Shown one piece after another: positions 7,495-58,779 of a stretch of 64,000 nt of DNA (position 1 is the first letter of the stretch; each line of letters starts with the position of its first letter). The DNA is from Plantactinospora soyae (GTDB lineage: Bacteria; Actinomycetota; Actinomycetes; Mycobacteriales; Micromonosporaceae). Below the pieces are notes generated by a model that saw only the letters and a list, made by a program, of their open reading frames with translations, searched no databases and had not been told where the DNA came from. Location: NCBI RefSeq assembly GCF_014874095.1, contig NZ_JADBEB010000001.1, positions 6,634,001-6,698,000 of the forward strand, given 5' to 3'. Made by a program: the position numbers and the translations under genes.

Positions 7495-8793
7495 ATGACG
7501 AAACCGCGCGTTGTGATCGTCGGGGCCGGGTTCGCTGGCTATCACGCGGCGAAGAACCTGTCCCGGATCGCCCGTGATCAGGCGGAGATCGTGCTACTGA
7601 ACCCCACCGACTACTTCCTGTACCTCCCGCTCCTGCCCGAGGTGGCCGCCGGGATCCTGGAACCCAGCCGGGTCTCGGTATCCCTCGCCGGCACGCTGGA
7701 CGGGGTACGGATCGTCATCGGCGAGGCGAGCCACATCGACCTGAACGCCAAGCGGGTCGACTACACCGGCGCCGAGGGCGAGCCGGGCGGCATCGGTTAC
7801 GACCGGCTGATCGTCGCCGTCGGCAGCGTCAACAAGCTGATGCCGATCCCGGGGGTCACCGAACACGCGCACGGGTTCCGGGGTCTGCCGGAGGCGCTGT
7901 ACCTGCATGACCACGTGGTCTGCCAGATCGAGCTGGCCGAGGCGACCGACGACCCGGCCGAGCGGGACGCGCGTACGACGTTCGTGGTCGTCGGCGCCGG
8001 CTACACCGGTACGGAGGTGGCGGCACACGGCCAGTTGTTCACCGACGCGCTGGCCGCCCAGCATCCCCGACTGGGCGTACGGCCGAAGTGGCTGCTGCTC
8101 GATCTCGCCGAGCGGGTCCTGCCCGAGCTGGACCAGCGGATGTCCGAGACGGCCAAGCGGGTGCTCGACGGCCGGGGCGTCGACGTCCGGATGGGCACCA
8201 CGGTCAAGGAGGCGACGGCCGACGGCGTACGGCTCAGCGACGGCGAGTACGTCGCGACCCGGTCCCTGATCTGGTGCGTCGGGGTGCGCCCCGATCCACT
8301 GGTGGCCGACCTCGGCCTGCGTACCGAGCGGGGGCGGCTCGTGGTCGACGAGTTCCTCGGGGTGCCCGGGTTCCCGGACGTCTTCGCGTGTGGTGACGCC
8401 GCCGCCGTACCCGACCTGACCCGGCCGGGGGAGGCGACCGCGATGACGGCACAACACGCCCAGCGGCAGGGGAAACTCGCCGCCCACAACGTCGCCGCGT
8501 CGTACGGGCAGGGCCGGCGCCGGCCGTACCGGCACCACGACCTCGGGTTCGTGGTGGATCTCGGTGGCACCGACGCGGCCGCGAACCCGTTGCACGTGCC
8601 GCTGGCCGGGCTGCCGGCGAAGGCGGTCACCCGGGGCTACCACCTGTTGGCGTTGCCGGGCAACCGGGCCCGGGTCAGCGCCGACTGGCTGCTCGACGCG
8701 GCGCTGACCCGGCAGGCCGTACAGCTCGGTCTGGTGCCGGCGAACGCCGTACCCCTGGAGAGCGCGTCCCCGGAGCTGCCGGCCCGACACTAG
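7495..8793 (+). CDS. ndh: Type II NADH dehydrogenase (NDH-2)-like FAD oxidoreductase
   Basis: 432 residues from ATG 7495. An FAD-binding Rossmann motif opens the protein (VVIVGAGFAGYHAAK), a second dinucleotide fold for NAD(P)H begins at VVVGAGYTGTEVAAH (about residue 162), and the FAD-closing motif FACGDAAAVPD is near 297, followed by TAQHAQRQGK. This order is that of single-subunit NDH-2 enzymes, which pass electrons from NADH to quinone at the inner membrane face without pumping protons. The C-terminus is less hydrophobic than in classical NDH-2, so a soluble disulfide-reductase-like role is possible. An ATG at 7474 is an alternative start. Confidence 0.85.
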   Translation: MTKPRVVIVGAGFAGYHAAKNLSRIARDQAEIVLLNPTDYFLYLPLLPEVAAGILEPSRVSVSLAGTLDGVRIVIGEASHIDLNAKRVDYTGAEGEPGGIGYDRLIVAVGSVNKLMPIPGVTEHAHGFRGLPEALYLHDHVVCQIELAEATDDPAERDARTTFVVVGAGYTGTEVAAHGQLFTDALAAQHPRLGVRPKWLLLDLAERVLPELDQRMSETAKRVLDGRGVDVRMGTTVKEATADGVRLSDGEYVATRSLIWCVGVRPDPLVADLGLRTERGRLVVDEFLGVPGFPDVFACGDAAAVPDLTRPGEATAMTAQHAQRQGKLAAHNVAASYGQGRRRPYRHHDLGFVVDLGGTDAAANPLHVPLAGLPAKAVTRGYHLLALPGNRARVSADWLLDAALTRQAVQLGLVPANAVPLESASPELPARH

Positions 8794-8802
8794 AAGCCGT
8801 GC

Positions 8803-9822
8803 TCACGGGCCCGGTCGTGGCCGGCGTGATCGTTCCGCTCCAGTGGCCATGCCGCCGCCGACCTCGTCGATCGCGTCGTCGATCTGGTGCGCGAGTGCCA
8901 CGTCGAGCGCGCTGACCGCGTCCAGGGACCGGGTCCGGACGGTGAGCACGGCGGTGTCCGGCGTCTCCCGGCCCACCATCGGGCCCCGCCCGGTGTCCGG
9001 GCGCAGCCGGGCCAGCCGGCCCAGCACCCGGTCCAGGTTCTCCGCCGGCAGTTCGATGGTGCGGGTCAGCCGGCCTCGATCAGCGGACCAGTACGGCAGC
9101 GTGGCGAGCGCGTCGCGCAGCTCCTCGTCGGTCAGCGCAGCGGCGCCGCCGGTCGGATCGACGAGACCTCCGCCGGCCGGTGGCGGCCCGAGCAGGTCGC
9201 GGAGATACTCCGGCAGGTCGAGCGACTCGACCAGACCCTGGTCCTGCTCGGCGAGCGCGCTCAGGGTCGCCTGTGCCTGGTAGCGGGCCTGCTCCGGGCT
9301 GCGGTGGCTGAGCCGGGCGACCTCCTCGAGGAAACCCGCCAGGTCCCGGCGCCGGTCTGCGGAGGCCAGCGACCGTTCGTCACACAGCTGACCGGGTACG
9401 GCGTCGAGCAGGCGCTGCCGGTCGGCCTCCTCCAACGCTCGGGCCAGCGCGGTCACCGTGGCTCCGGCGGCGGCACGGGCCTGTTCGAAGTCCACGCCGG
9501 CCCGCCGCCCGACATCGGAGACGAGATCCCGGTACGCGATGACGGCGACGTCCGTGCCGACGGTGCCGCCGATGTCGTCGGGCAGCGGCATGGGACGCCC
9601 GCCCGGTGCGGGCGCCGGGGTGACCGGCCCGGCCCGCTCGGCGTTCGGCTTGCGGCTGCCGGCCGGCGGCGGCCCGTTCCGGCGGCCCCGGTCCAGGCTT
9701 TCGAGCTGCTTGTCGGCCCCGAGGGTGGCCCCGACCTCGCTCGGCCGCCGACCCTGCTCGCGGGCCTGCCGGGCCAACGCACGACGTCGTTGATTGTCAC
9801 CCTCCATCTGCTTCCCGCTCAT
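8803..9822 (-). CDS. DUF2267 protein with degenerate pterin-dehydratase-like domain
   Basis: 339 residues. A basic, disordered head (to about 85) leads into a DUF2267 four-helix module (about 92-225: DLVSDVGRRAGVDFEQARAA onward). A C-terminal module (about 236-325: LTDEELRDALATLPYWSAD) matches the opening of pterin-4a-carbinolamine dehydratase (PCD/DCoH). The catalytic region of true PCD has an EHHP-type His pair and a later THxxxG; here the aligned stretch reads GRETPDTAVLTVRTRSLDAV, without those histidines, so dehydratase activity is unlikely. The start at 9822 has GAGGAG 5 nt upstream, and this ribosome binding site lies inside a tandemly repeated element. Function unknown. Confidence 0.75.
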   Translation of the reverse strand: MSGKQMEGDNQRRRALARQAREQGRRPSEVGATLGADKQLESLDRGRRNGPPPAGSRKPNAERAGPVTPAPAPGGRPMPLPDDIGGTVGTDVAVIAYRDLVSDVGRRAGVDFEQARAAAGATVTALARALEEADRQRLLDAVPGQLCDERSLASADRRRDLAGFLEEVARLSHRSPEQARYQAQATLSALAEQDQGLVESLDLPEYLRDLLGPPPAGGGLVDPTGGAAALTDEELRDALATLPYWSADRGRLTRTIELPAENLDRVLGRLARLRPDTGRGPMVGRETPDTAVLTVRTRSLDAVSALDVALAHQIDDAIDEVGGGMATGAERSRRPRPGP

Positions 9823-9989
9823 GCCGTCTCCTCGCTGCGCTCGTCATCGTCATGAGTTTCAACCTGGGCTTGCTGGTTCACTCGCTGCGCTCGCTTACGC
9901 CGTCTCCTCGCTGCGCTCGTCATCGTCATGAGTTTCAACCTGGGCTTGCTGGTTCACTCGCTGCGCTCGCTTACGCCGTCTCCTCGCTG
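9823..9989. repeat. 76-bp tandem direct repeats
   Basis: Two identical 76-bp units (9823-9898 and 9899-9974) followed by the first 15 bp of a third (9975-9989). Each unit holds two copies of the submotif CTCGCTGCGCTCG. Further diverged pieces of the submotif continue to about 10021. On the minus strand each unit carries a GAGGAG ribosome-binding-like sequence, and the unit next to the DUF2267 gene supplies that gene's actual leader. The repeats are adjacent, without unique spacers. Confidence 0.9.
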
Positions 9990-10226
9990 CTCGCTCACGC
10001 CGTTTCCTTGCTGCGCTCGTCACGGGCAAGAGCCAGATCAACCGCCTTCCCGTGCGGCGATCCCCGAAACTCGCGGGTGAGCCGGCCCAGATCGACCGGC
10101 TCGCTGTCCCGTCGGGGCCCGGACGGCGGCAGGTCTCATCTCCGCGGGGTGAGGAGCGCTCACCCCACCGCCGTCCACGATCAGTTCGACCGGTGAGACC
10201 TCCGTGCTTTCGGAAGGGACGTCGCC
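9990..10226. promoter_or_regulatory. Intergenic region with hairpin, upstream of 103-aa gene
   Basis: Together with the tandem repeats this makes a 404-bp stretch without a gene. It contains a small perfect hairpin, GGGGTGAG-GAGCG-CTCACCCC (10145-10165), about 60 bp upstream of the 103-residue gene. It may be a leader structure or a terminator; there is no T run. No promoter was recognised. Confidence 0.4.
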
Positions 10227-10538
10227 ATGAAGAGGATCGTCGAGATCGTCCCCGCCCGACCCGGCTGGTACGCCCGCTGGCGTCTCGACCCGGACACCAC
10301 CCGTTCGTACCCGGTTTCGGTGTGGGCGTTGCTGGAGGAGACCGACGAAGGCGGCCGAGAGGTCATCGGGGTCGATTCCGTCGGCCAGTGGCCGGGTTCG
10401 GAGCAGAACGAGGCGGGCGGGGACTTCGTCCGGTACCTCTTCCAGCCGCCGGACAGCGGAACTCCGGAGGACGCGGCCCGACCGGAGGAACTGGGTGCCG
10501 AACCCACGAACCGGCCGGCGCGGCTCGAACCGGCCTGA
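10227..10538 (+). CDS. Small hypothetical protein, 103 aa
   Basis: The ATG at 10227 follows GGAAGGGA with good spacing. The product is soluble and acidic, with a compact first part (MKRIVEIVPARPGWYARWRL, then a beta-rich stretch SYPVSVWALLEE) and a disordered Pro/Glu-rich C-terminal tail. No catalytic motif or transmembrane segment. I do not recognise the family. It is convergent with the aldo/keto reductase, 26 bp away. Confidence 0.7.
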   Translation: MKRIVEIVPARPGWYARWRLDPDTTRSYPVSVWALLEETDEGGREVIGVDSVGQWPGSEQNEAGGDFVRYLFQPPDSGTPEDAARPEELGAEPTNRPARLEPA

Positions 10539-10564
10539 TCCGCCGGGAGCGCGGTCGTACGCGG

Positions 10565-11413
10565 TCAGAGCAGTTCCAGCGGCCTCGGTCCGCTCGGCGG
10601 CGGGAACGCCCGGTCGAGTTCGGCGAGATCGTCGTCGGTGAGGGTCAGCTCGATGGCGGCCCGGTTCTCCAACACCCGGGCCGGGGAACTCGCCTTGGTC
10701 ACCGTGCAGACTCCCGGCTGAGCCAGCAGCCAGGCGAGCCCCACCTGCCCGGGGGTGGCGCCGTGCCGCTGCGCCACGGCGGCCAGCGCCGGATGGTCGA
10801 GCATCCGGCCCCGTTCCAGCGGCGAGTACGCCATCACGGGCAGGCCCGCCGCGCGGCAGCGGGGGAGCAGGTCCCACTCGATGCCCCGCCGGGTCAGGTT
10901 GTACGGGATCTGATCGGTCTCGACCGCCGTACCGCCGGGGATGCCGGTCAGTTCGACCACCTCGGGGACGTCGAAGTTGCTCACGCCCCAGTGCCGGATC
11001 AGCCCCTGGGTCATCAGATTGGTGAACGCCTCGACCGTCTCCGCTAGCGGCGCGGACCCCCGCTGGTGCAGGAGGTACAGGTCGATGCGATCGGTGCCCA
11101 GCCGTTCCAGGCTCCGTTCGCAGGCCGCGGCGGTGCCGGTTCCGGTCGCGTGCTCCGAGGAGATCTTGCTGATCAGGAAGATCTCCTCGCGTCGGTCGCC
11201 GAGCGCCTCACCGACCAGTTTCTCGGCTGCGCCGTCGGCGTACACCTCGGCGGTGTCGATGACGGTAAGCCCGACGTCCACTCCCGCGCGAAGTGCCGCG
11301 ATCTCGGCGTCCCGCCGTCCAGGGTCCTCCGCCATTCCCCAGGTGCCCTGGCCGAGGGCCGGGATCGCCTCGCCGGATGGGAGTGTCACCACCGGAACCT
11401 GCTGTTTCGTCAT
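10565..11413 (-). CDS. Aldo/keto reductase
   Basis: 282 residues from ATG 11413, preceded by AGAAAGAGG. NADPH-dependent carbonyl reductase of the AKR TIM-barrel fold. The catalytic tetrad is visible: Asp and Tyr in DTAEVYADG, Lys in LISKISSEH, and His in LYLLHQRG. Typical strand/phosphate-binding motifs GVSNFDVPEV, AYSPLERGR and TKASSPARVLENR follow. It resembles the short AKR5-type reductases (YeaE/DkgA-like) that reduce keto-gulonate or methylglyoxal; the physiological substrate is unknown. It faces away from a STAS gene across a region containing a perfect inverted repeat that probably binds a regulator. Confidence 0.92.
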   Translation of the reverse strand: MTKQQVPVVTLPSGEAIPALGQGTWGMAEDPGRRDAEIAALRAGVDVGLTVIDTAEVYADGAAEKLVGEALGDRREEIFLISKISSEHATGTGTAAACERSLERLGTDRIDLYLLHQRGSAPLAETVEAFTNLMTQGLIRHWGVSNFDVPEVVELTGIPGGTAVETDQIPYNLTRRGIEWDLLPRCRAAGLPVMAYSPLERGRMLDHPALAAVAQRHGATPGQVGLAWLLAQPGVCTVTKASSPARVLENRAAIELTLTDDDLAELDRAFPPPSGPRPLELL

Positions 11414-11518
11414 GGCCAACCTCTTTCTGACCGGTCCGTGCTGGGCACCTTCCCGTGCCCCTGTCCGACAAACCGCAGCCTCGGTGCCGGCCTCTCGATG
11501 TCGATCTAGGGGTTGCGT

Positions 11519-11540
11519 ATACTTGCCTGACTGCAAGTAT
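11519..11540. promoter_or_regulatory. Perfect palindromic operator in AKR/STAS divergent region
   Basis: ATACTTGC-CTGACT-GCAAGTAT, 8-bp perfect arms and a 6-bp spacer. It is centred between the divergent aldo/keto reductase and STAS starts. The size and spacing fit a dimeric TetR/MarR/HxlR-type repressor. No regulator gene is adjacent. Confidence 0.6.
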
Positions 11541-11571
11541 CGGCCGGTCAGGGGTGCGGAGGGGGCGGGAC

Positions 11572-11922
11572 GTGGCGTTCTCCGTCAGTTGTACGCAGCA
11601 TGCCGACTTCGTACGGCTGCACCTGAATGGTGAACTGGACATCGTGACGGTGCCCGACCTCCACGCGGCTCTCGACCGGTTACTCGAGGACGGTCAGCGA
11701 CGTTTGCTGGTAGACCTGACGGAGCTGACCTTCTGCGACTCCAGTGGTTTGGCCGCGTTCGTCCGGGGGGATGACGAGGCCGGTTCTCGGGGCGGCTGGC
11801 TGCGGCTGACCGGCGCGACCGGCCGGGTCGACCGGGTGCTGCGGATCAGCGGACTGGCCGAGTTGTTCCGGTACGACCAGGAACACGACCGACATGACCC
11901 CGCGCCCCTTAGTGACCGCTGA
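11572..11922 (+). CDS. STAS-domain anti-sigma factor antagonist
   Basis: 116 residues from GTG 11572 (GGAGGGGG upstream). A single STAS domain: LHLNGELDIVTVPDLHAALD, then LLVDLTELTFCDSSGLAAFV, where DSSG holds the conserved serine that an SpoIIAB/RsbW-type kinase phosphorylates. In the partner-switching scheme the unphosphorylated form binds the anti-sigma factor and frees a SigB/F-type sigma factor. No anti-sigma kinase is encoded in this window. A sigma factor of the right class is encoded at 49.2 kb, but a link is only inference. Followed by a receiver-domain gene and a DivIVA-like gene on the same strand. Confidence 0.88.
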   Translation: MAFSVSCTQHADFVRLHLNGELDIVTVPDLHAALDRLLEDGQRRLLVDLTELTFCDSSGLAAFVRGDDEAGSRGGWLRLTGATGRVDRVLRISGLAELFRYDQEHDRHDPAPLSDR

Positions 11923-15647: not shown

Positions 15648-16070
15648 TCAGCGTCGGCGCGGTTCGGCCGGACCGACGGTGAGGGTGTGCCGGCCGCTGC
15701 CGCTGGAGAACGGCCAGAGCTGGTCGGCGTACCGGGCCAGGTCGGTCAGCTGGTCCCGGTTCAGGCCGACCGACGCGATGCTGGCGCGTACGTCGGCCCG
15801 GTAGAGACCGTCGGAGTCCCGGGCGAGCCGGGCCTGGGCGCGTACCTGCACGGTGTGTGCCTCGTCGGTGATGCCGGTGGCCGCCTCGACCGCCGCGTGG
15901 TGCAGGCAGGAGGCGAACGCGGCGGCGAGCAGCTGTTCCGGGGCGAGCCCGGTGCAGTGCGGCGCCAGCGGCGAGGCCAGGCTGGTCGACAGTTCCCCGT
16001 CGTCCGTATGCAGGTGACCTCCTTCAGCGGTAGCGGTGGCCTCGTGCACCCAGGAATCCGAATCCGGCAT
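15648..16070 (-). CDS. Ohr/OsmC-family peroxide-defence-like protein
   Basis: 140 residues. Matches the Ohr subgroup: GLAPEQLLAAAFASCLHHAA holds the peroxidatic Cys (about 55). In classical Ohr a resolving Cys occurs in a VCPYS-type motif near the C-terminus; here the aligned segment is ADQLWPFSSGSGRHTLTV, with Trp in place of Cys. The protein therefore cannot form the usual intramolecular disulfide, and may work as a 1-Cys enzyme or have another role. Preceded by a perfect SigB/F-type promoter, so it is probably a general-stress gene. Confidence 0.85.
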   Translation of the reverse strand: MPDSDSWVHEATATAEGGHLHTDDGELSTSLASPLAPHCTGLAPEQLLAAAFASCLHHAAVEAATGITDEAHTVQVRAQARLARDSDGLYRADVRASIASVGLNRDQLTDLARYADQLWPFSSGSGRHTLTVGPAEPRRR

Positions 16071-16405
16071 TGCTTACCCCCCGTGTGGCTCTGCGGCGGG
16101 CTACCCGGCGGGCCGGTCGTGAAACCCGGAACGACGTCCCGGAGCCGATCGGCTCGCCGGAAACCGCGCCGGAGTGGCGCCCGACCGGGTAGGTTACGAC
16201 GGTTCGGCCTCCCAAACGCGACAAACAGCCCACAATGTCGCCCGCTCGGTGTGTCCCTTCCGGAGCCGTCAAGCCGACGTCAAGAACGAGATGCCCGGCG
16301 TAGCCGAAACGTCAGAACGCTGCATGCCCGTCCGGCAACCGGGCTTTCATGGTCCTGACGGCCGAAGACGGTCGTGAAGAACGCGCGTGCTGGAGAGGAC
16401 GTTCG
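16071..16405 (+). promoter_or_regulatory. kdp upstream region with direct repeats (candidate KdpE site)
   Basis: Apart from the minus-strand promoter of the Ohr-like gene, this 335-bp region should hold the kdp control site. Two copies of CGTCAAG begin 11 bp apart (16267-16273 and 16278-16284), one helical turn, the usual spacing of sites for OmpR/PhoB-type regulators such as KdpE. A related CGTCAGA begins at 16310. A small hairpin GCCCG-N9-CGGGC lies at about 16326-16344. The assignment to KdpE is inference. Confidence 0.4.
16101..16125 (-). promoter_or_regulatory. SigB/F-type promoter of the Ohr-like gene
   Basis: On the minus strand: GTTT (16125-16122), 15-nt spacer, GGGTAG (16106-16101). 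The -10 lies 31 bp upstream of the ATG at 16070. Matches the GTTT-N15-GGGTA(T/G) form of SigB/SigF promoters in actinobacteria. Confidence 0.7.
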
Positions 16406-44108: not shown

Positions 44109-45233
44109 ATGCAGCTGTCCTTCCTGCGTCCGATCTGTGCCCATTCCGGCCCGTGGACGTCGGTCTACCTGGACGCTTCCCGGGACACCCACGACGCCCA
44201 TCCCGCGCTGGAGTTGCGCTGGCGCGCCCTACAGGAGCGCCTCGCGGAGCAGCGGGCCGATCCGCGTACCGTGGCGGCCCTCGACGACGTGGTACGCGGG
44301 CACGAGCCGATGCCCGGCGACTACGGCCTCGCGGCGTTCGCCACCGGGGGCGAGGTGGTACTGACCGAGTACCTCTCCGCGCCGCCGATGAAGGACCTCG
44401 CCGCGCACGGGCCGCTGCCACACACGATGCCGCTGGTCGCCCAGCGCCGTGAGCAGGTGCCCTGGGTACGGGTGCTGGCCAGTCGTACCGGCGCCGACGT
44501 GGACGGGGTGAGCGCCGGAGGCGTACCCCGGCACGCGCACGTCAAGGGCGGCAACCAGTACCCGCTGCGGCGGGTCCAGGCGGGTGGCTGGTCCCACTCG
44601 CACTGGCAGCGGGACGCGCTGGTGTCCTGGCGGCGTAACGCGGGCGACGCCGCGGCGGCCACCGCAGACCTGGCCGACCGGGTCGGCGCGGAGGTGATCG
44701 TGGTGGCCGGCGAGACCCGGGCCCGGCAGTTGCTCGCCGCCCAGTTGCCGGCGTTCTGGCAGGACCGGGTGGTCCAGACCGACGCCGGGTTCCCCGCGGC
44801 CGGGGCCAAGCAGTTCGCCTTCGACGACGTCACCGTGCAGGCCATCGCCGAGGTCGCCGCCGCGCACACCGACGAGGCGTTGGACCGGTTCGGCGCGCAG
44901 CAGCAGGTCGGTGAGGGACTGGACGCCGTGGTGACGGCGCTGCAACGCGGTCAGGTCGACACGATGCTTCTGGTGGACGATCCGTCGTCGACCGAGCGGC
45001 TGTGGATCGGCCCGGAGCCGACCGAGATCGCCACCGGGCCGGAGGAACTCGTCGCGATGTCCGTCACGCGGCCACAGCAGGTACGCGCCGACGCCGCGCT
45101 GGTCCGGGCGCTGGTCGGCACCGACGCGGCGCTGACCGTACTCGATTCCGACCAGGCGCCGGACCTTTCCGACGGGGTCGGCGCGGTCCTGCGGTACACC
45201 GACGCCAGCACCCCGGCACGCGGCGATGGCTGA
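44109..45233 (+). CDS. baeRF-family (Rv2629-like) protein
   Basis: 374 residues from ATG 44109 (GGAGAGGGG upstream). Resembles the bacterial archaeo-eukaryotic release-factor family seen in mycobacterial Rv2629: TSVYLDASRDTHDA near the start, a central HAHVKGGNQYPLRRVQ plus GGWSHSHWQRDAL (about 145-170) where release factors have the GGQ loop, and a C-terminal eRF1 domain-3-like part (VGEGLDAVVTALQRGQVDTM, LLVDDPSS). These proteins are predicted to act on stalled ribosomes or in dormancy; activity is not established. The TPP enzyme gene overlaps its stop by 8 bp. A weak SigB/F-like motif (GTGA-N15-GGGTAT, 44054-44078) lies 30 bp upstream. Confidence 0.83.
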   Translation: MQLSFLRPICAHSGPWTSVYLDASRDTHDAHPALELRWRALQERLAEQRADPRTVAALDDVVRGHEPMPGDYGLAAFATGGEVVLTEYLSAPPMKDLAAHGPLPHTMPLVAQRREQVPWVRVLASRTGADVDGVSAGGVPRHAHVKGGNQYPLRRVQAGGWSHSHWQRDALVSWRRNAGDAAAATADLADRVGAEVIVVAGETRARQLLAAQLPAFWQDRVVQTDAGFPAAGAKQFAFDDVTVQAIAEVAAAHTDEALDRFGAQQQVGEGLDAVVTALQRGQVDTMLLVDDPSSTERLWIGPEPTEIATGPEELVAMSVTRPQQVRADAALVRALVGTDAALTVLDSDQAPDLSDGVGAVLRYTDASTPARGDG

Positions 45234-47466: not shown

Positions 47467-48888
47467 GTGGGCCCCGTGCGGGAGATGCAGGAGTGGCTGG
47501 CCGCGGGCGGGCCAGGACTTCCCGGACCGGACCGGATCGTGTCACCGGAGAGCGCCGGTCGGGTACTGCTGGCGGTGGCGTCCCGAGCGGTCCGGGGTCG
47601 CGACTGCGCCGACCTCGGATACCACCCGCTGCTGTCCAGGTTCCGGGGTGCCCCGGAGACCGTCCGACGCACCGCGCTGGCCCGAGCCGGTGCCCGCGCC
47701 GCGGTCACCGCCGAGCAGGCCGGCACGCTCGACGCGGACCAGGTCGCCCGGTGGATGGTGGAGCACTATCCGGCGGACCGGTACCCCGGCATCGTGCTCG
47801 GCTCACCTCACGGCGGGGCGGTGCACCTGGCCACCGCGATGGGGGTGCCCTGGCTACCTACCGCGTTCGACGTGGCGGTGCAGTGGCCGGGCGGCGCCGT
47901 GACCGACCCGGCCGGCGCGTTGGCGTACGGCGCGCGGGTGGCCGGGCGGCTGCTCGGCGCCAATCCGGCCGTCCGGGTACGCCAGGTGCACGATCCGGCC
48001 GGACGGGGCGTACTGGCCGGTTCGACCGTCTCGCTGGTGGTGCGCTGGCACCGGCTGTCCGACCCGTACCGGGAGTTCCTCGGCAACCGGCTCGAGCCCG
48101 GAGCGCCGGTACTGCTGCTTCGTGACGTTCGGGGCTGGCCGGTCCTGGAGTACGCCGACGGGCACAGTTTCCAGGTCGGTGGGCCGACCAGCGGGTTGGA
48201 GCCGGCCGACTTCCGGCCGGACAGCGAGGTCCTCGGACAGGTTCTGCGCGGTGCCGGCGGGGACGGGGCCAGTTGGGACGCCCCCGATCCCGGCCTGCCC
48301 GGGTACGCCGAACACGGCGTCGAACCGGGCTTCGAGGCGGGCCTGCTCGACTGGGCCGAGGCCGCCGGCAGTCCGGTGCACCGGGTGCTGTTTCCCGGGC
48401 CGCACGCGCTCAGCGCCGCCGCCGCCGACGTGTACCGGAACTGGTTGCGGGCGGCCGGGAAGACCGGGGACCGGTGCGTGGTGGAGTGCGGCCGGCTGAT
48501 CGACCCCTGGCAGGTGGTCCGGGCCGGTCTGGTGCCGTACTGGTGCGAGAGCGCGACCGAGCGCAGCGTGACCGGTGCCGAGTGGTGGCTCGCCGGCAGT
48601 ACGCCGTTCAGCTCGCTCGACGTCCTGCCCGAGCCTCCGGGGCTGCGGTCACCGGCGCTCGCCGGGCTGCCGCAGTGGCTCGCGGTCGCCTCGTTCGGTC
48701 GACGTCGGCGGGCGGTGGACCGGATGGCGGCCCGGGGCTATCCGGTGACCTCGGTGGCCACCCGACACGCCACCGAGGTGCTCCGCGGGCAGCCGTACGA
48801 CCTGCCGGCACCCGCGCCGCTGCGGGTGGTCGAGGCACTGGCCGGACTGCGGGCCAGCGGTACGCCCCAGGGCCTGCTCGTCTGTTGA
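47467..48888 (+). CDS. Hypothetical protein, 473 aa
   Basis: Starts at GTG 47467 or at GTG 47476. Soluble, no signal or membrane helix. Visible landmarks: YPGIVLGSPHGGAVHLATAM with GVPWLPTAFDVAVQWPGG (about 113-145), VRQVHDPAGRGVLAGSTVSL, and YRNWLRAAGKTGDRCVVECG near 330. GSPHGG recalls nucleophile-elbow loops of alpha/beta hydrolases but lacks a convincing Ser-Asp-His order. I do not recognise the family. A weak SigB/F-like promoter precedes it and the sigma factor gene follows. Confidence 0.75.
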   Translation: MGPVREMQEWLAAGGPGLPGPDRIVSPESAGRVLLAVASRAVRGRDCADLGYHPLLSRFRGAPETVRRTALARAGARAAVTAEQAGTLDADQVARWMVEHYPADRYPGIVLGSPHGGAVHLATAMGVPWLPTAFDVAVQWPGGAVTDPAGALAYGARVAGRLLGANPAVRVRQVHDPAGRGVLAGSTVSLVVRWHRLSDPYREFLGNRLEPGAPVLLLRDVRGWPVLEYADGHSFQVGGPTSGLEPADFRPDSEVLGQVLRGAGGDGASWDAPDPGLPGYAEHGVEPGFEAGLLDWAEAAGSPVHRVLFPGPHALSAAAADVYRNWLRAAGKTGDRCVVECGRLIDPWQVVRAGLVPYWCESATERSVTGAEWWLAGSTPFSSLDVLPEPPGLRSPALAGLPQWLAVASFGRRRRAVDRMAARGYPVTSVATRHATEVLRGQPYDLPAPAPLRVVEALAGLRASGTPQGLLVC

Positions 48889-49202: not shown

Positions 49203-50339
49203 ATGTTCGGACAGACCACCACTACAGCACCGGCGGAACGTGGACTGGAAGACCTGGACGCGGCCGCACTGGCGTACGCGGCCAGGATCGCCGGCCTGCC
49301 ACCGGAGCGTCGGCAGGAGGCGCGCGACGACCTCGTACGGTTCGCGCTGCCGTTCGCCGGCCGGCTGGCGCGGCGCTACCGAGGCCGTGGTGAACCCCTC
49401 GAGGACCTCGAACAGGTCGCCCGACTGGGCCTGGTCAACGCGGTCGACCGGTACGACCCGGAACGGGGTTCGTTCACCGCGTACGCCGCGATCACCATCG
49501 TGGGGGAGATAAAGCGCCACTTCCGGGACCGCACCTGGGGGGTGCACGTGCCGCGCCGGCTGCGGGACCTGATCCTGGAGGTCGGGCAGGCCACGGCGGC
49601 GCTGACCAGTGAGCTGTCCCGCTCGCCCAGCGTGGCGGAACTCGCGGCCCGGCTGGAGACGCCGGAGGAGGAGATCCTCGCGGCGCTCGAATCGGCGGCC
49701 GGCTACAGCCCGGCGTCGCTCAACGCGCCGGTCGGCGGGGAGAGTTCGGCGGAGTTCGGTGACCTCGTCGGCGAGTCCGACTCGGACCTGGAGTCGGTCG
49801 ACGACCGGGTGACGGTCAGCGGACTGCTCGGTCGGCTGCCGTGGCGGGAACGGCGGATCCTCGCGATGCGGTTCTACGGCAACCAGACCCAGGCCGAGAT
49901 CGCCGCCAGGTTCGGCATCTCGCAGATGCACGTCTCCCGGCTGCTCTCCCGGGCGCTCATCTGGCTGCGGCAGGCGATGCTCGCCGACACACCCGCGCCG
50001 TGGCAGACCGGCGGCGCCGACTCGGCGGGTCAACCGGCCCGGCTCTCGGTGCGCGAGGTGGGCGACCGGGTCGTGGTCGAGGTGACCGGGGAGGTCGACC
50101 GGGACACCGCCGAGCAGCTGCGCCAGGCGGTCGTGGAGGCGGTCTCCTCCGGGCATCCGGCGGAGGTGGCGATCGACCTGACCGACGTCGCGAGGCTCGA
50201 CGGCCCCGCCCTGGCCGCGCTGGTCGCGGGTCGGGACGCGGCGCATCGCACCGGCGTACGGTGGCGGCTGGCCCGGGCTCAACCGGAGGTCCAGCATTCG
50301 CTCAGCTCCGCGGGTCTGGTGGCGCTGCCGGCGGACTGA
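49203..50339 (+). CDS. SigB/F/G-type sigma factor fused to a STAS domain
   Basis: 378 residues; ATG follows GGGAGGCGCGG. Sigma part: region 2 with EPLEDLEQVARLGLVNAVDR and SFTAYAAITIVGEIKRHFRD (about 60-108), region 3 with ELSRSPSVAELAARLETPEE, region 4 with RFYGNQTQAEIAARFGISQM and HVSRLLSRALIWLR (about 222-258). This is the SigB/F/G class of group 3 sigma factors. Residues about 278-375 form a STAS domain (VVEVTGEVDRDTAEQLRQAV, VAIDLTDVARLDGPALAALV). Canonical STAS antagonists have D-S-S/T-G at the phosphorylation site; here it is LDGPALAAL with no serine. Sigma and anti-anti-sigma functions on one chain is unusual. Gene neighbours carry matching promoters. Confidence 0.9.
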   Translation: MFGQTTTTAPAERGLEDLDAAALAYAARIAGLPPERRQEARDDLVRFALPFAGRLARRYRGRGEPLEDLEQVARLGLVNAVDRYDPERGSFTAYAAITIVGEIKRHFRDRTWGVHVPRRLRDLILEVGQATAALTSELSRSPSVAELAARLETPEEEILAALESAAGYSPASLNAPVGGESSAEFGDLVGESDSDLESVDDRVTVSGLLGRLPWRERRILAMRFYGNQTQAEIAARFGISQMHVSRLLSRALIWLRQAMLADTPAPWQTGGADSAGQPARLSVREVGDRVVVEVTGEVDRDTAEQLRQAVVEAVSSGHPAEVAIDLTDVARLDGPALAALVAGRDAAHRTGVRWRLARAQPEVQHSLSSAGLVALPAD

Positions 50340-50370: not shown

Positions 50371-52383
50371 TCATCGTTGTTCCTCGTCGTCGTCCCCGGA
50401 CGACCGGCCGGTCCGCCAGCGACGGCTCCGTTCCGGTCCACCCCGGTCCTCGCTGGAGATGTTCTCGTCCGGCTGGCTCGGCGGGAAGTGCGGCCGGAGT
50501 ACGTCGTCCGGCTCCGGGACCTCAATCGGGCGGGCACCGGACTGCGCCGGTGGATGGTGCGCGACGGCCGCGTCGGCACCGTGTGCCCCCTCGGCGGTGG
50601 GAACCTCCTCGTGGAAAGGGGCCGGCTGGTGCAGTTCGTCGCGGATCAGCTGCGGCGGCAGGGTGGAGCGCTGCGGCAGGTCGCGGCCGAGGTCGGCGAC
50701 GAGTGGGCCGTACTTGTCGTCGAAGGCGGGCCGCTCGGAGCGGATCCGGGGCATCCGGTCGAAGTTGCGTAGCGGTGGCGGGCAGGTCGTCGACCACTCC
50801 AGCGAGTTCCCGAAGCCCCACGGGTCGTAGACCTCCACCGACCGGCCGAATCGCCAGGACTTCCAGACGTTGTAGATGAAGAACAGGGTCGACGCGCCGA
50901 GCACGAACGAGCCGATCGTGGAGATGGTGTTCAGCACGGTGAAGCCGTCCGTGGGCAGGTAGTCGACGTACCGGCGGGGGAATCCCTCGTTGCCCAACCA
51001 GTGCTGGACCAGAAAGGTGGTGTGGAAGCCGAGGAACATGGTCCAGAAGTGGACCTTGCCGAGTCGTTCGTCCAACAGTCGGCCGGTCATCTTGGGAAAC
51101 CAGAAGTACACCCCGCCGAAGGCGGCGAAGACGATGGTGCCGAAGAGTACGTAGTGGAAGTGGGCGACCACGAAATAGGTGTCGGTGGTGTGGAAGTCGA
51201 CCGGCGGGCTGGCCAGCAGGACGCCGGTGAGGCCACCGAAGAGGAAGGTGACCAGGAAGCCGACGGAGAACAGCATCGGGGTCTCGAAGGTCAGCTGTCC
51301 CTTCCACATCGTGCCGATCCAGTTGAAGAACTTCACCCCGGTCGGCACCGCGATCAGATAACTGAGCCAACTGAAGAACGGCAGCAGCACCTGTCCGGTG
51401 CCGAACATGTGGTGCGCCCAGACCGTCATCGAGAGAATCGTGATCGCGATCGTCGCGGCGACCAGCCCCTTGTAACCGAAGATCGGCTTTCGGGAGAAGA
51501 CCGGAATGATCTCGGTGATGATGCCGAAGAACGGCAGCGCGACGATGTACACCTCGGGATGGCCGAAGAACCAGAACAGGTGCTGCCAGAGCAGCGGTCC
51601 CCCGTTCGCGGGATCGTAGACGTGGGCGTTGAGTCTTCGGTCGGCGTAGAGCGCGAGCAGGGCGGCGGCCAGCAGCGGGAAGACCAGGATTATCAACAGT
51701 GCGGTGAAGAGCATGTTCCAGGTGAAGATCGGCATCCGGAACATGGTCATGCCGGGCGCCCGCAGGGTCAGGATCGTGGTGATCAGGTTGACCGCGCCGA
51801 GGATCGTGCCGAGCCCGGAGAGGACCAGCCCGATCACCCACATGTCCGGGCCGATGCCGGGGGAGTGCTGGTCCCGGCTCAGCGGCGCGTAGGCCGTCCA
51901 GCCGAAGTCGGCGGAGCCGTTGGGGGTGAGGAATCCGAGCAGCACCAGCGAGCCGCCGAGCAGGTACAGCCAGTACGCCAGCGCGTTGAGCCGGGGGAAC
52001 GAGACGTCGGGAGCGCCGATCTGCAACGGCACCACGAAGTTGCCGAAGGCGAGCGCCAGCGGCGTGGCGAAGAGCAGCAACATGATCGTGCCGTGCGCCG
52101 TGAACAGCTGGTTGTACTGCTCGTTCGAGAGGAACTGCAGTCCCGGACGGCCCAGTTCGGCGCGCATCAGCATCGCCATCGCGCCGCCGACGAGGAAGAA
52201 GCCGAAGGCGGTGCTCAGGTACATCAGGCCGATCTGCTTGGCATCGGTGGTGCCGAGCATCTTGATCAGCCTGCTGCCCCGGATCGCCTGCCGGATCGGT
52301 CCCGGATATCCACCGGAGCGGGCGGGGGCGAGGATCAGCGGCCCGCGCTCCTGCCCCGGTTCGGTAACCACCCGTTTCGGCAT
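50371..52383 (-). CDS. ctaD: Cytochrome c oxidase subunit I, orphan copy
   Basis: 670 residues from ATG 52383 (a GTG at 52392 adds three). Twelve membrane helices. Heme/copper ligands: [12 protein letters not shown] (about 92), [17 protein letters not shown] (about 272, the His-Tyr pair), WAHHMFGTG (CuB His pair), HFHYVLFGT (about 405). K-channel region [16 protein letters not shown] is conserved. A cytoplasmic tail of about 110 residues, acidic and disordered, is much longer than usual. No subunit II, III or heme-copper assembly gene is nearby. Preceded by a perfect SigB/F-type promoter, suggesting a stress- or starvation-specific subunit. Confidence 0.94.
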
Positions 52384-52425
52384 TCCACTCACCCCGCATA
52401 CGACCCAACTAGGACGAGCGGGTGG

Positions 52426-52450
52426 CTACCCGGGATCTCAGTGACAAAAC
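52426..52450 (-). promoter_or_regulatory. SigB/F-type promoter of ctaD
   Basis: Minus strand: GTTT (52450-52447), 15-nt spacer, GGGTAG (52431-52426), 43 bp upstream of the ATG. Perfect match to the shared motif. Confidence 0.7.
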
Positions 52451-52512
52451 ACGGCAGCTACGGAAAATCCGGTTTTCTTGCCCCGAAAAGGTGAAACCGG
52501 GCGATCGGCGGC

Positions 52513-52959
52513 CTACCGGCGTCGACTGGCGAGTACGCCGAGTCCGATCATGGCGATGCCGAGCCCGAGGTGCAGCCAGTTGTCGGCATCGTTGACCGGA
52601 AGGAAGTTCGCCGCGCTGTCCTGCTCGATCGCCAGGCCGTACACCCAGAGCACCAGGTAGACCGCGCCGCCGCCGATCAGGAAGGTCCGCGCCCCGGTCG
52701 CCGTACGGGCCAGCGCCAGCCCGGCCACCCCCGACACCAGGTGTACGAGGTTGTGCAGCACCGACACCTCGAAGACGCCGAACAGCCGGGCACCGGAATG
52801 CTGCCCGGCCAGACCCAGGTCGTCGTATCGGGAGGTGACGTCCGGGATGAAGCCCAGCACGCCGAGCGCCAGGAAGACGACGGCGACCGCGACCGCGGCG
52901 CCGCTCACCGGCCCCCGCCCGGTTACCGGCCGGCTGACCGTGGAACTGGATCTGTGCAC
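52513..52959 (-). CDS. DUF4383 membrane protein
   Basis: 148 residues. Four hydrophobic helices in the DUF4383 order: AAVAVAVVFLALGVLGFIPD, FGVFEVSVLHNLVHLVSGVA (conserved His residues), FLIGGGAVYLVLWVYGLAIE, and NWLHLGLGIAMIGLGVLASR. Function unknown; members are small membrane proteins common in actinobacteria. It has its own SigB/F-type promoter and lies directly upstream of ctaD, which has another. Confidence 0.88.
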   Translation of the reverse strand: MHRSSSTVSRPVTGRGPVSGAAVAVAVVFLALGVLGFIPDVTSRYDDLGLAGQHSGARLFGVFEVSVLHNLVHLVSGVAGLALARTATGARTFLIGGGAVYLVLWVYGLAIEQDSAANFLPVNDADNWLHLGLGIAMIGLGVLASRRR

Positions 52960-52998: not shown

Positions 52999-53023
52999 CT
53001 ACCCGGCGACCACTCCGGCAAAC
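52999..53023 (-). promoter_or_regulatory. SigB/F-type promoter of the DUF4383 gene
   Basis: Minus strand: GTTT (53023-53020), 15-nt spacer, GGGTAG (53004-52999), 40 bp upstream of the start at 52959. Perfect match to the shared motif. Confidence 0.7.
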
Positions 53024-57893: not shown

Positions 57894-57918
57894 GTTTGTC
57901 CACCCGGCGCTCGGGTAG
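57894..57918 (+). promoter_or_regulatory. SigB/F-type promoter of the leader-ANTAR pair
   Basis: GTTT (57894-57897), 15-nt spacer, GGGTAG (57913-57918), 53 bp upstream of the leader ATG. Perfect match to the shared motif. Confidence 0.72.
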
Positions 57919-57970: not shown

Positions 57971-58045
57971 ATGACACAGGCGACGGCACGAACCGGACGT
58001 ACCGCGGCAGCCGCGGTGGTGGCGGGGGTCCCGGCGCGGTGGTGA
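57971..58045 (+). CDS. 24-residue leader peptide coupled to the ANTAR gene
   Basis: ATG 57971 is preceded by GGGGGAGAGG with good spacing. The peptide is Ala/Thr/Arg-rich (TQATARTGRTAAAAVVAGVP) and ends with a TGA that overlaps the GTG of the next gene (GTGA, 58042-58045). The ANTAR gene has no ribosome binding site of its own, so its translation probably depends on this ORF. No function is suggested for the peptide itself. Confidence 0.55.
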   Translation: MTQATARTGRTAAAAVVAGVPARW

Positions 58046-58779
58046 GACTGGGGACGACGGAGGTAAGGGCCGAGGCCCCGGGCGTGCTGGAAACCGCAGC
58101 CCTGCTCCGCGAGGTGACCGCGGGGCTCATCGCGAGCAGTGACTTCGATACGGCGTTGGACCGGCTGGTGGGTACCGTCCGGGACGCCATTCCGGGAGTG
58201 ACCTGGTGCGGGGTGACCGTGCTGCGGGCCGGGGCGCCGGCCTCGGTCGCCGCCTCCGAGCCGCGGCTCGGCGACCTCGACGACGTCCGGTACGGCGCCG
58301 ACGGTCCGGCGATGGTCGCGATCCGTACCCGGGAACTGGTCTGGTCGGCGGACCTGCGGACCGAGACCCGGTGGCGTCCGTGGACCGGCCGCGCGATGGA
58401 GTTCGGGGTACGCGGGGTGCTGGCGGTGCCGGTGGACATCGACGCACACGTGGTCGGCGCGATCAGCCTGTACGCCCGCGAGCCCGGCGTGCTCACCGCG
58501 AGCCAGCAGCTCACGGCGATGCTCCTCGCCGAGCACGCCGGACTGCTGCTCGGCGCGGTCCGGGACCGTGCCGGGGCCGACCCGACCGGCGAATCCGACG
58601 AGACGCTCTCCGCGGGGCAGGTGATCGACCAGGCCGTCGGGGTTATTATGACCCAACGTGGCTGTCCGGCCACGGAGGCGCTGCGGGTGTTGCGTTCCGC
58701 CTCGGCGGCTCTGGCCATCCCACTCCGGGACGTGGCCGAGCGGCTGGTCACCTCGGTGGCCCGCCCTCGGGACACCTGA
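58042..58779 (+). CDS. GAF-ANTAR protein (RNA-binding antiterminator type)
   Basis: 245 residues from GTG 58042 (or 58039). GAF sensor domain about 20-170 (ALLREVTAGLIASSDFDTAL; FGVRGVLAVPVDIDAHVVGA), then an ANTAR domain about 190-240 (SAGQVIDQAVGVIMTQRGCP then ATEALRVLRSASAA). ANTAR domains bind paired hexaloop hairpins in mRNA and prevent termination. Actinobacterial GAF-ANTAR proteins respond to small ligands or redox state. Probable stress regulon member through the SigB/F-type promoter ahead of the leader peptide. Confidence 0.92.
   Translation: MRLGTTEVRAEAPGVLETAALLREVTAGLIASSDFDTALDRLVGTVRDAIPGVTWCGVTVLRAGAPASVAASEPRLGDLDDVRYGADGPAMVAIRTRELVWSADLRTETRWRPWTGRAMEFGVRGVLAVPVDIDAHVVGAISLYAREPGVLTASQQLTAMLLAEHAGLLLGAVRDRAGADPTGESDETLSAGQVIDQAVGVIMTQRGCPATEALRVLRSASAALAIPLRDVAERLVTSVARPRDT

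Follow-up and report, generated by a model that had tools for sequence, protein, structure and literature searches.

A sigma-SsdA orthologue with a serine-less STAS domain in Plantactinospora soyae, linked to ctaD and lacking a neighbouring sipA gene

The ssdA locus

The window, by which we mean the whole 64,000-nucleotide stretch of the Plantactinospora soyae genome analysed here, holds a single uninterrupted frame, free of stop codons, whose 378-residue product joins a sigma factor to a STAS domain. Tezuka et al. (2023, PMC10733313) have described a protein of this kind in Actinoplanes missouriensis, sigma-SsdA (AMIS_54240), together with the STAS-HATPase protein that inhibits it, SipA (AMIS_54230), and we refer to the window gene as ssdA. 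The fusion is accordingly not new as an architecture, the authors of that paper presenting sigma-SsdA as the first instance of a sigma factor bearing such a domain. In a literature search confined to main texts PMC10733313 was the only description of the system found and no account of it in Plantactinospora was found, the genus name having no occurrence in the main text of PMC10733313. The features of the locus are the following.

49203-50339, plus strand: ssdA, sigma-SsdA orthologue (SigB/F/G-type sigma factor, linker and STAS domain), 378 residues
50046-50321, plus strand: fused STAS domain, residues 282-373, from Pfam, AlphaFold2 and HMMER
50199-50210, plus strand: codons of D333-G334-P335-A336, facing D-S-S-G of SpoIIAA in an HMMER alignment
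50371-52392, minus strand: ctaD paralogue linked to ssdA, encoding cytochrome c oxidase subunit I (547.6 bits with COX1); the genome has three such matches
52393-52512, no strand: gap of 120 bp between ctaD and the DUF4383 gene, without room for a sipA gene; the interval that holds sipA in most Micromonospora loci examined
52513-52959, minus strand: gene of a DUF4383 protein, a neighbour kept in many ctaD-linked loci

The original prediction held that a SigB/F/G-class sigma factor is here fused to an antagonist-type STAS domain, and the Pfam search that it proposed bears this out, since Sigma70_r2 (62.7 bits, residues 49-112), Sigma70_r3 (52.3 bits, 124-190), Sigma70_r4 (58.7 bits, 208-256) and STAS (PF01740, 48.3 bits, 282-373) are all matched in one chain. 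The STAS score lies far enough above its cut-off of 22.6 to rule out a chance match, and the sigma part, at about residues 36-259 and separated from the STAS domain by a linker (263-281), is matched by the NCBIfam model TIGR02980 (SigBFG) with 252.5 bits (cut-off 234.35). The STAS domain keeps the GEVD motif and scores 49.5 bits with the anti-sigma antagonist model TIGR00377, under the curated cut-off of 53.45, which the STAS domain of the Micromonospora pattaloongensis protein, from a locus with a SipA-like gene (L105), exceeds with 66.3 bits. In an AlphaFold2 model of the product (33-row alignment; mean pLDDT 72.9, pTM 0.40) residues 281-370 follow the beta-alpha order of a STAS domain with block means of pLDDT between 81 and 88, and the best 50 Foldseek matches of the model are chains of sigma factors or transcription complexes. 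Owing to the low whole-chain pTM and a low-confidence stretch at residues 167-203 the Foldseek TM-scores are low, and no contact between the sigma and STAS domains is claimed.

The ctaD gene is convergent with ssdA, its stop lying 31 nt behind that of ssdA. Directly upstream of ssdA, at 47467-48888, is the gene of a 473-residue protein without any Pfam match at E 0.001 (cluster c6, 11 neighbourhood positions), and farther upstream, at 44109-45233, that of a bacterial archaeo-eukaryotic release factor family 2 protein (baeRF_family2, 130.5 bits; cluster c4, 12 neighbourhoods).

In a quick tree of 66 rows, from which rows with identical sigma stretches had been dropped, the window protein is one of 19 ctaD-linked proteins that form a clade with an SH-aLRT of 100, close to the one holding the Actinoplanes proteins, and gene clusters c2, c10, c7 and c25 are common to the ctaD-linked loci and an Actinoplanes locus (L073). 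Phylogeny and synteny alike thus link the gene to the ssdA of Actinoplanes and Micromonospora, the Actinoplanes rows being species other than A. missouriensis. If the numbering is the same, three of the ssdA suppressor positions reported in PMC10733313 (D68, F91 and L372) are furthermore identical in the window protein, and the fourth, S100, is valine. A sipA gene adjacent to ssdA or one gene (ctaD) away is not found at the window locus, and whether such linkage, itself taken from the text of PMC10733313, is to be required of a sigma-SsdA orthologue is a matter of definition.

A serine-less STAS domain throughout the family

Of 91 genomes from the same family, at least 38 carry full-length fusions (from a search of 151 relatives), a count to which lower-scoring fusions may add and in which two proteins (G077; L056, L057) are poor relatives that group with the outgroup row in the tree. 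Among the matches listed there were none in 60 genomes from other families of the order, and a survey of 396 genomes of the phylum likewise gave, among the matches listed, full-length fusions in two members of the same family only. Relatives retrieved with one peptide pattern (80 of 140) belong to Micromonospora, Plantactinospora, Actinoplanes, Paractinoplanes, Symbioplanes, Phytohabitans, Asanoa and Spirilliplanes, and the sigma-STAS family is somewhat wider than the published statement on it. The survey for the same architecture that had been suggested at the outset is thereby answered, and the alternative raised with it, a sequencing error in a stop codon between two genes, falls, as does any frameshift artefact, given that the same fusion is present in many independent assemblies. 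A gene in another genome (G004, 7235040) was considered as part of a precursor pair, and is merely an ordinary sigma gene. Some genomes carry two or three copies, and paralogues of other genera adjoin, as judged by eye, CheB- and CheR-like genes (clusters c16 and c17), with both near the gene at L049, L071, L072 and L078 and one of the two at L045-L048, L051 and L052, which suggests further signalling inputs for these paralogues.

In SpoIIAA the second serine of the DSSG sequence is the one that becomes phosphorylated. Its position is occupied by P335 in the ssdA product according to the HMMER alignment (E 2e-4), so that the DSxG serine of RsbV/SpoIIAA-type partner switching is absent, and the initial reading that LDGPALAAL replaces the DSSG site is correct, D333, G334, P335 and A336 facing D-S-S-G. 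The fused domain is the only one of eight STAS matches in the genome without Ser or Thr directly after the conserved Asp, the other seven reading DSTG, DSTG, DSSG, DSQG, DTQV, DSVG and DSFV, and the stand-alone STAS gene of the window (ORF 11455-11922) does keep its DSSG, as had been stated. Elsewhere in the same genome (L101, 7940000-7957000; genes 8187-10952) lies a stressosome-like row with an RsbR-like protein bearing a C-terminal STAS domain, a second STAS match, and two HATPase-like proteins that are RsbT- and RsbX-like by eye only.

The loss of the serine is not a feature of the window gene alone. Among 110 distinct sigma-STAS fusions (121 locus rows minus one non-fusion, L058, one short frame, L142, and nine proteins fetched twice) the site reads DAGG in 52, DAAG in 44 and DGPA in six, with eight singletons, and none has serine at position 334 or 335, one threonine occurring at each. 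DGPA is peculiar to the genus of the window. The expectation that kinase control at the usual serine is unlikely is correct, and because no member of the sigma-STAS family has the phosphorylatable serine, the classical phosphorylate-and-release switch cannot act on the fused STAS domain.

The missing sipA gene and selection on the STAS domain

In A. missouriensis the HATPase part of SipA binds the STAS domain of sigma-SsdA and not the sigma part in two-hybrid assays, and on genetic evidence SipA appears to be its inhibitor, deletion of sipA unleashing sigma-SsdA; in Micromonospora, ctaD lies between ssdA and sipA according to the Discussion of the same paper (PMC10733313). Clustering of the genes around 40 sigma-STAS loci and the window, called by a simple codon-GC script that missed the focal gene in two of the 41 stretches (L058 and L063), recovered a recurrent neighbour of about 245 residues whose N-terminal part is STAS-like and whose C-terminal part resembles the HATPase RsbW. 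Three of these neighbours were scanned and gave 28.2, 38.8 and 27.3 bits with HATPase_c_2 (cut-off 27.4), STAS being above its cut-off in two of the three. A SipA-like match of at least 60 bits is found in 100 of 121 loci, in most Micromonospora loci about 2.2 kb downstream of ssdA between ctaD and the DUF4383 gene, and is missing from the fetched stretches of the other 21. At this threshold there is none in the 20-kb stretch around the window locus, none at any of the six distinct Plantactinospora loci examined, and none at the loci of neighbouring genera (G007, G016 and G041). The absence of sipA beside a conserved ssdA, in the window and at all six distinct Plantactinospora loci examined, is new here, and with it the picture goes beyond the original prediction: the architecture is published, is spread over the Micromonosporaceae and is usually accompanied by a neighbouring sipA, which is absent beside the window copy.

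Eight SipA-less rows of the tree form one clade (about 80% SH-aLRT, drawn open), for which a single loss of sipA is the simplest reading, and we infer that the gene was lost here rather than gained elsewhere. Two further loci, L067 and L146, lack a linked sipA separately from this clade. A second sigma-STAS paralogue in another genome of the genus (G001) is accompanied by ctaD and by genes for a SipA-like and a DUF4383 protein (L050, 287000-306000), a module that counts against a genus-wide loss of SipA. In SipA-less lineages the site equivalent to DSSG now reads DGPA, EHGG or HAAA; however, L146 still keeps DAGG, so that a missing sipA is not always accompanied by a drifted site.

We also considered that sipA had moved elsewhere in the genome. 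The sole full-length candidate in the window genome is a remote STAS-HATPase gene (9057300; L095:8780-9622), the other three matches being partial, and it belongs to a separate clade of its own on a long branch (1.96). Full-length homologues from four genus mates, G001, G002, G004 and G006, fall in the same clade, and it is conceivable that this protein has replaced SipA and now docks on the fused STAS domain. Such a replacement is nonetheless improbable, since the remote gene does not lie near ssdA and since G003 and G005 keep ssdA even though their best matches to the SipA model reach just E 6.2e-20 and 1.7e-19.

The fused STAS domain might instead act as a decoy, binding and using up the anti-sigma factor of its own or of other SigF-like sigma factors and thereby protecting its own sigma part or freeing others. 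The closeness of the domain to the antagonist family, with a TIGR00377 score just under the cut-off, GEVD kept and no serine at the usual place, fits such a role, as do the ten matches that the SipA model gives in the window genome, but there is no partner gene beside the window ssdA, and the A. missouriensis results described above run the opposite way, in that binding of SipA to the STAS domain, with no binding to the sigma part, inhibits and loss of SipA unleashes the sigma factor (PMC10733313). We consider a decoy decidedly improbable. The suggestion that the STAS domain sequesters its own anti-sigma factor survives in part: the domain is an anti-sigma binding site, but the outcome of binding reported for A. 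missouriensis is the reverse of a sequestration that would leave the sigma factor free (PMC10733313).

The two parts of the chain differ in how strongly they are conserved. Pairwise pN/pS, counted on related and hence not independent sequences, is 0.014 for the sigma part and 0.288 (95% interval 0.177-0.429) for the STAS domain of seven Plantactinospora genes, 0.045 and 0.219 (0.152-0.306) for a control set of 12 SipA-bearing Micromonospora genes, and 0.050 and 0.540 (0.424-0.678) for a wider, also more divergent, SipA-less set of seven. The fused STAS domain is constrained in all three gene sets. Its evolution is not significantly faster in Plantactinospora than in Micromonospora (bootstrap P 0.126), and constraint is weaker in the wider SipA-less set, none of 2000 bootstraps giving a difference at or below zero.

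This last comparison, together with the drifted site in SipA-less lineages, could be taken to mean that the STAS domain became a functionless, drifting tail once sipA was lost. We find this rather unlikely, since pN/pS is still below 1, no stop codon interrupts any of the seven Plantactinospora matches, and L372 is unchanged in all rows of the three sets, a position at which substitution by proline (L372P) has been reported to abolish sigma activity in A. missouriensis (PMC10733313).

Conserved promoters, proposed function and comparison with known systems

In vitro, A. missouriensis sigma-SsdA transcribes from two promoters of the form GnTT-N14-CGGGTA (PMC10733313). Four perfect copies of the variant GTTT-N14-CGGGTA are present in the window.

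52427-52450, minus strand: 34 nt before the ctaD start
53000-53023, minus strand: 40 nt before the DUF4383 gene
16102-16125, minus strand: 31 nt before an OsmC-family gene (15648-16070, minus strand)
57894-57917, plus strand: 121 nt before a GAF-ANTAR gene (58039-58779)

The number expected in the window is 0.01. The 9.7-Mb genome contains 19 perfect sites, as compared with none for the reversed control; others among them precede genes for MsrB (SelR), a Clp protein, an F420-type oxidoreductase and a DUF2231 protein, and some have no convincing gene behind them. Across the family the motif (GnTT, spacer 13-15) ends between -27 and -38 before the linked ctaD in 53 of 65 loci, where a mononucleotide shuffle predicts 0.05, the 65 being loci with a ctaD match of at least 500 bits in the stretch (in L056 ctaD is 3 kb away). 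Two of nine duplicate pairs fall among these loci, both with the motif, which leaves 51 of 63 without them, and loci of one genus are not independent in any of the promoter counts. Before ctaD copies not linked to ssdA the same motif occurs in only one of 37 (one copy each from 29 hand-picked genomes, two further copies from the window genome and six others), the window's own linked ctaD being a 38th row outside this count. It also lies close to where the best SipA-like gene begins in 53 of 100 loci, mostly with a spacer of 15 and in three cases past the estimated start, no Actinoplanes locus being among these sipA promoters under the strict pattern, and before the DUF4383 gene in 25 of 56; it was found neither before ssdA itself (0 of 121 loci) nor before the upstream gene C6 (0 of 67). 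A promoter of the sigma-SsdA type before the linked ctaD, and often also before sipA and the DUF4383 gene, is a new finding at these loci.

That sigma-SsdA controls ctaD is a prediction of this work, since the A. missouriensis targets named in the text of PMC10733313 include catalase and glutamate-cysteine ligase, and ctaD is not among them. SigB-like sigma factors generally have promoters similar to this type, which could count against assigning the sites to sigma-SsdA, and three other SigF-like sigma factors encoded in the genome could use these promoters. In position and conservation the sites agree with what is expected for sigma-SsdA. It is predicted to use them in P. soyae, and its sigma part is very likely active, as judged by its conservation and by the conserved promoters beside ssdA.

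Taken together, we consider it likely that the window gene encodes a sigma-SsdA orthologue whose serine-less STAS domain is a docking surface for an anti-sigma factor lost at this locus. The sigma part would direct RNA polymerase to GTTT-N14-CGGGTA before the ctaD paralogue, the DUF4383 gene and a small set of oxidative-stress genes (OsmC, MsrB, Clp). In relatives, the HATPase domain of SipA would dock on the fused STAS domain and hold the sigma factor inactive, and in Micromonospora, where sipA appears to be under the same promoter type, mostly with the 15-nt spacer, this would close a negative feedback. In Plantactinospora and close genera sipA seems to have been lost from the locus, leaving a sigma part that is extremely conserved and a STAS domain that appears to be under weaker but real purifying selection. 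By analogy with A. missouriensis, inhibition through SipA-STAS binding may apply to the P. soyae genome as well. Where SipA is missing, the STAS domain is most likely kept because folding or activity of the chain depends on it, control having presumably moved to another level.

The locus accordingly looks like a respiratory and oxidative-stress module with negative feedback whose inhibitor has been lost here. In a bolder form, which we put forward tentatively as a possibility, the sigma factor of Plantactinospora and neighbouring genera has survived the loss of the only inhibitor known for it. Its STAS domain, formerly the handle of that inhibitor, would now be intrinsic, blind to phosphorylation and needed for promoter or core function, and the sigma factor would run, without partner switching, a module for respiratory stress that comprises an additional oxidase subunit I, DUF4383, OsmC and MsrB. 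For the published system (PMC10733313) it matters how binding to the fused STAS domain switches off the sigma factor and why the domain is present at all, and lineages that have kept a sigma-STAS fusion but lost sipA lend themselves to such a comparison. Target genes and a feedback loop can furthermore be predicted from the conserved promoters before ctaD, sipA and the DUF4383 gene, which suggest a link between sigma-SsdA and the terminal oxidase; in Mycobacterium smegmatis, SigF activity has been reported to track the state of the aa3 oxidase (PMC10950880).

The closest described protein, sigma-SsdA of A. missouriensis (PMC10733313), shares its domain order with the window protein and differs from it by one residue in length (379 residues as against 378, with the STAS domain at 282-377 as against 282-373), and the promoter motif published for it is present next door to the window ssdA; the window gene, however, is linked to ctaD and not directly to sipA, which is missing from the locus. 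Proteins from Actinoplanes species other than A. missouriensis share about 55-62% identity with the window protein and have DAAG in place of its DGPA. The Micromonospora locus is more similar still, with the same order of ssdA and ctaD, mostly a DUF4383 gene downstream, the same promoter before ctaD and, in most rows, an SsdA that is about 81-85% identical, but it keeps sipA, usually between ctaD and the DUF4383 gene, and has DAGG at the site. SpoIIAA and RsbV (PDB 1auz, 1th8 and 1til) belong to the same STAS family, their GELD motif being aligned by HMMER (E 2e-4), but they stand alone and carry the serine, whereas the window STAS domain is serine-less and fused to a sigma factor. PhyR of alphaproteobacteria, in which a sigma-like domain is combined with a receiver, likewise unites a sigma-type domain and a domain of anti-sigma control on one chain. 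The sigma part of PhyR is however a mimic that is not known to transcribe. SsdA, as reported for the A. missouriensis protein, does transcribe in vitro (PMC10733313).
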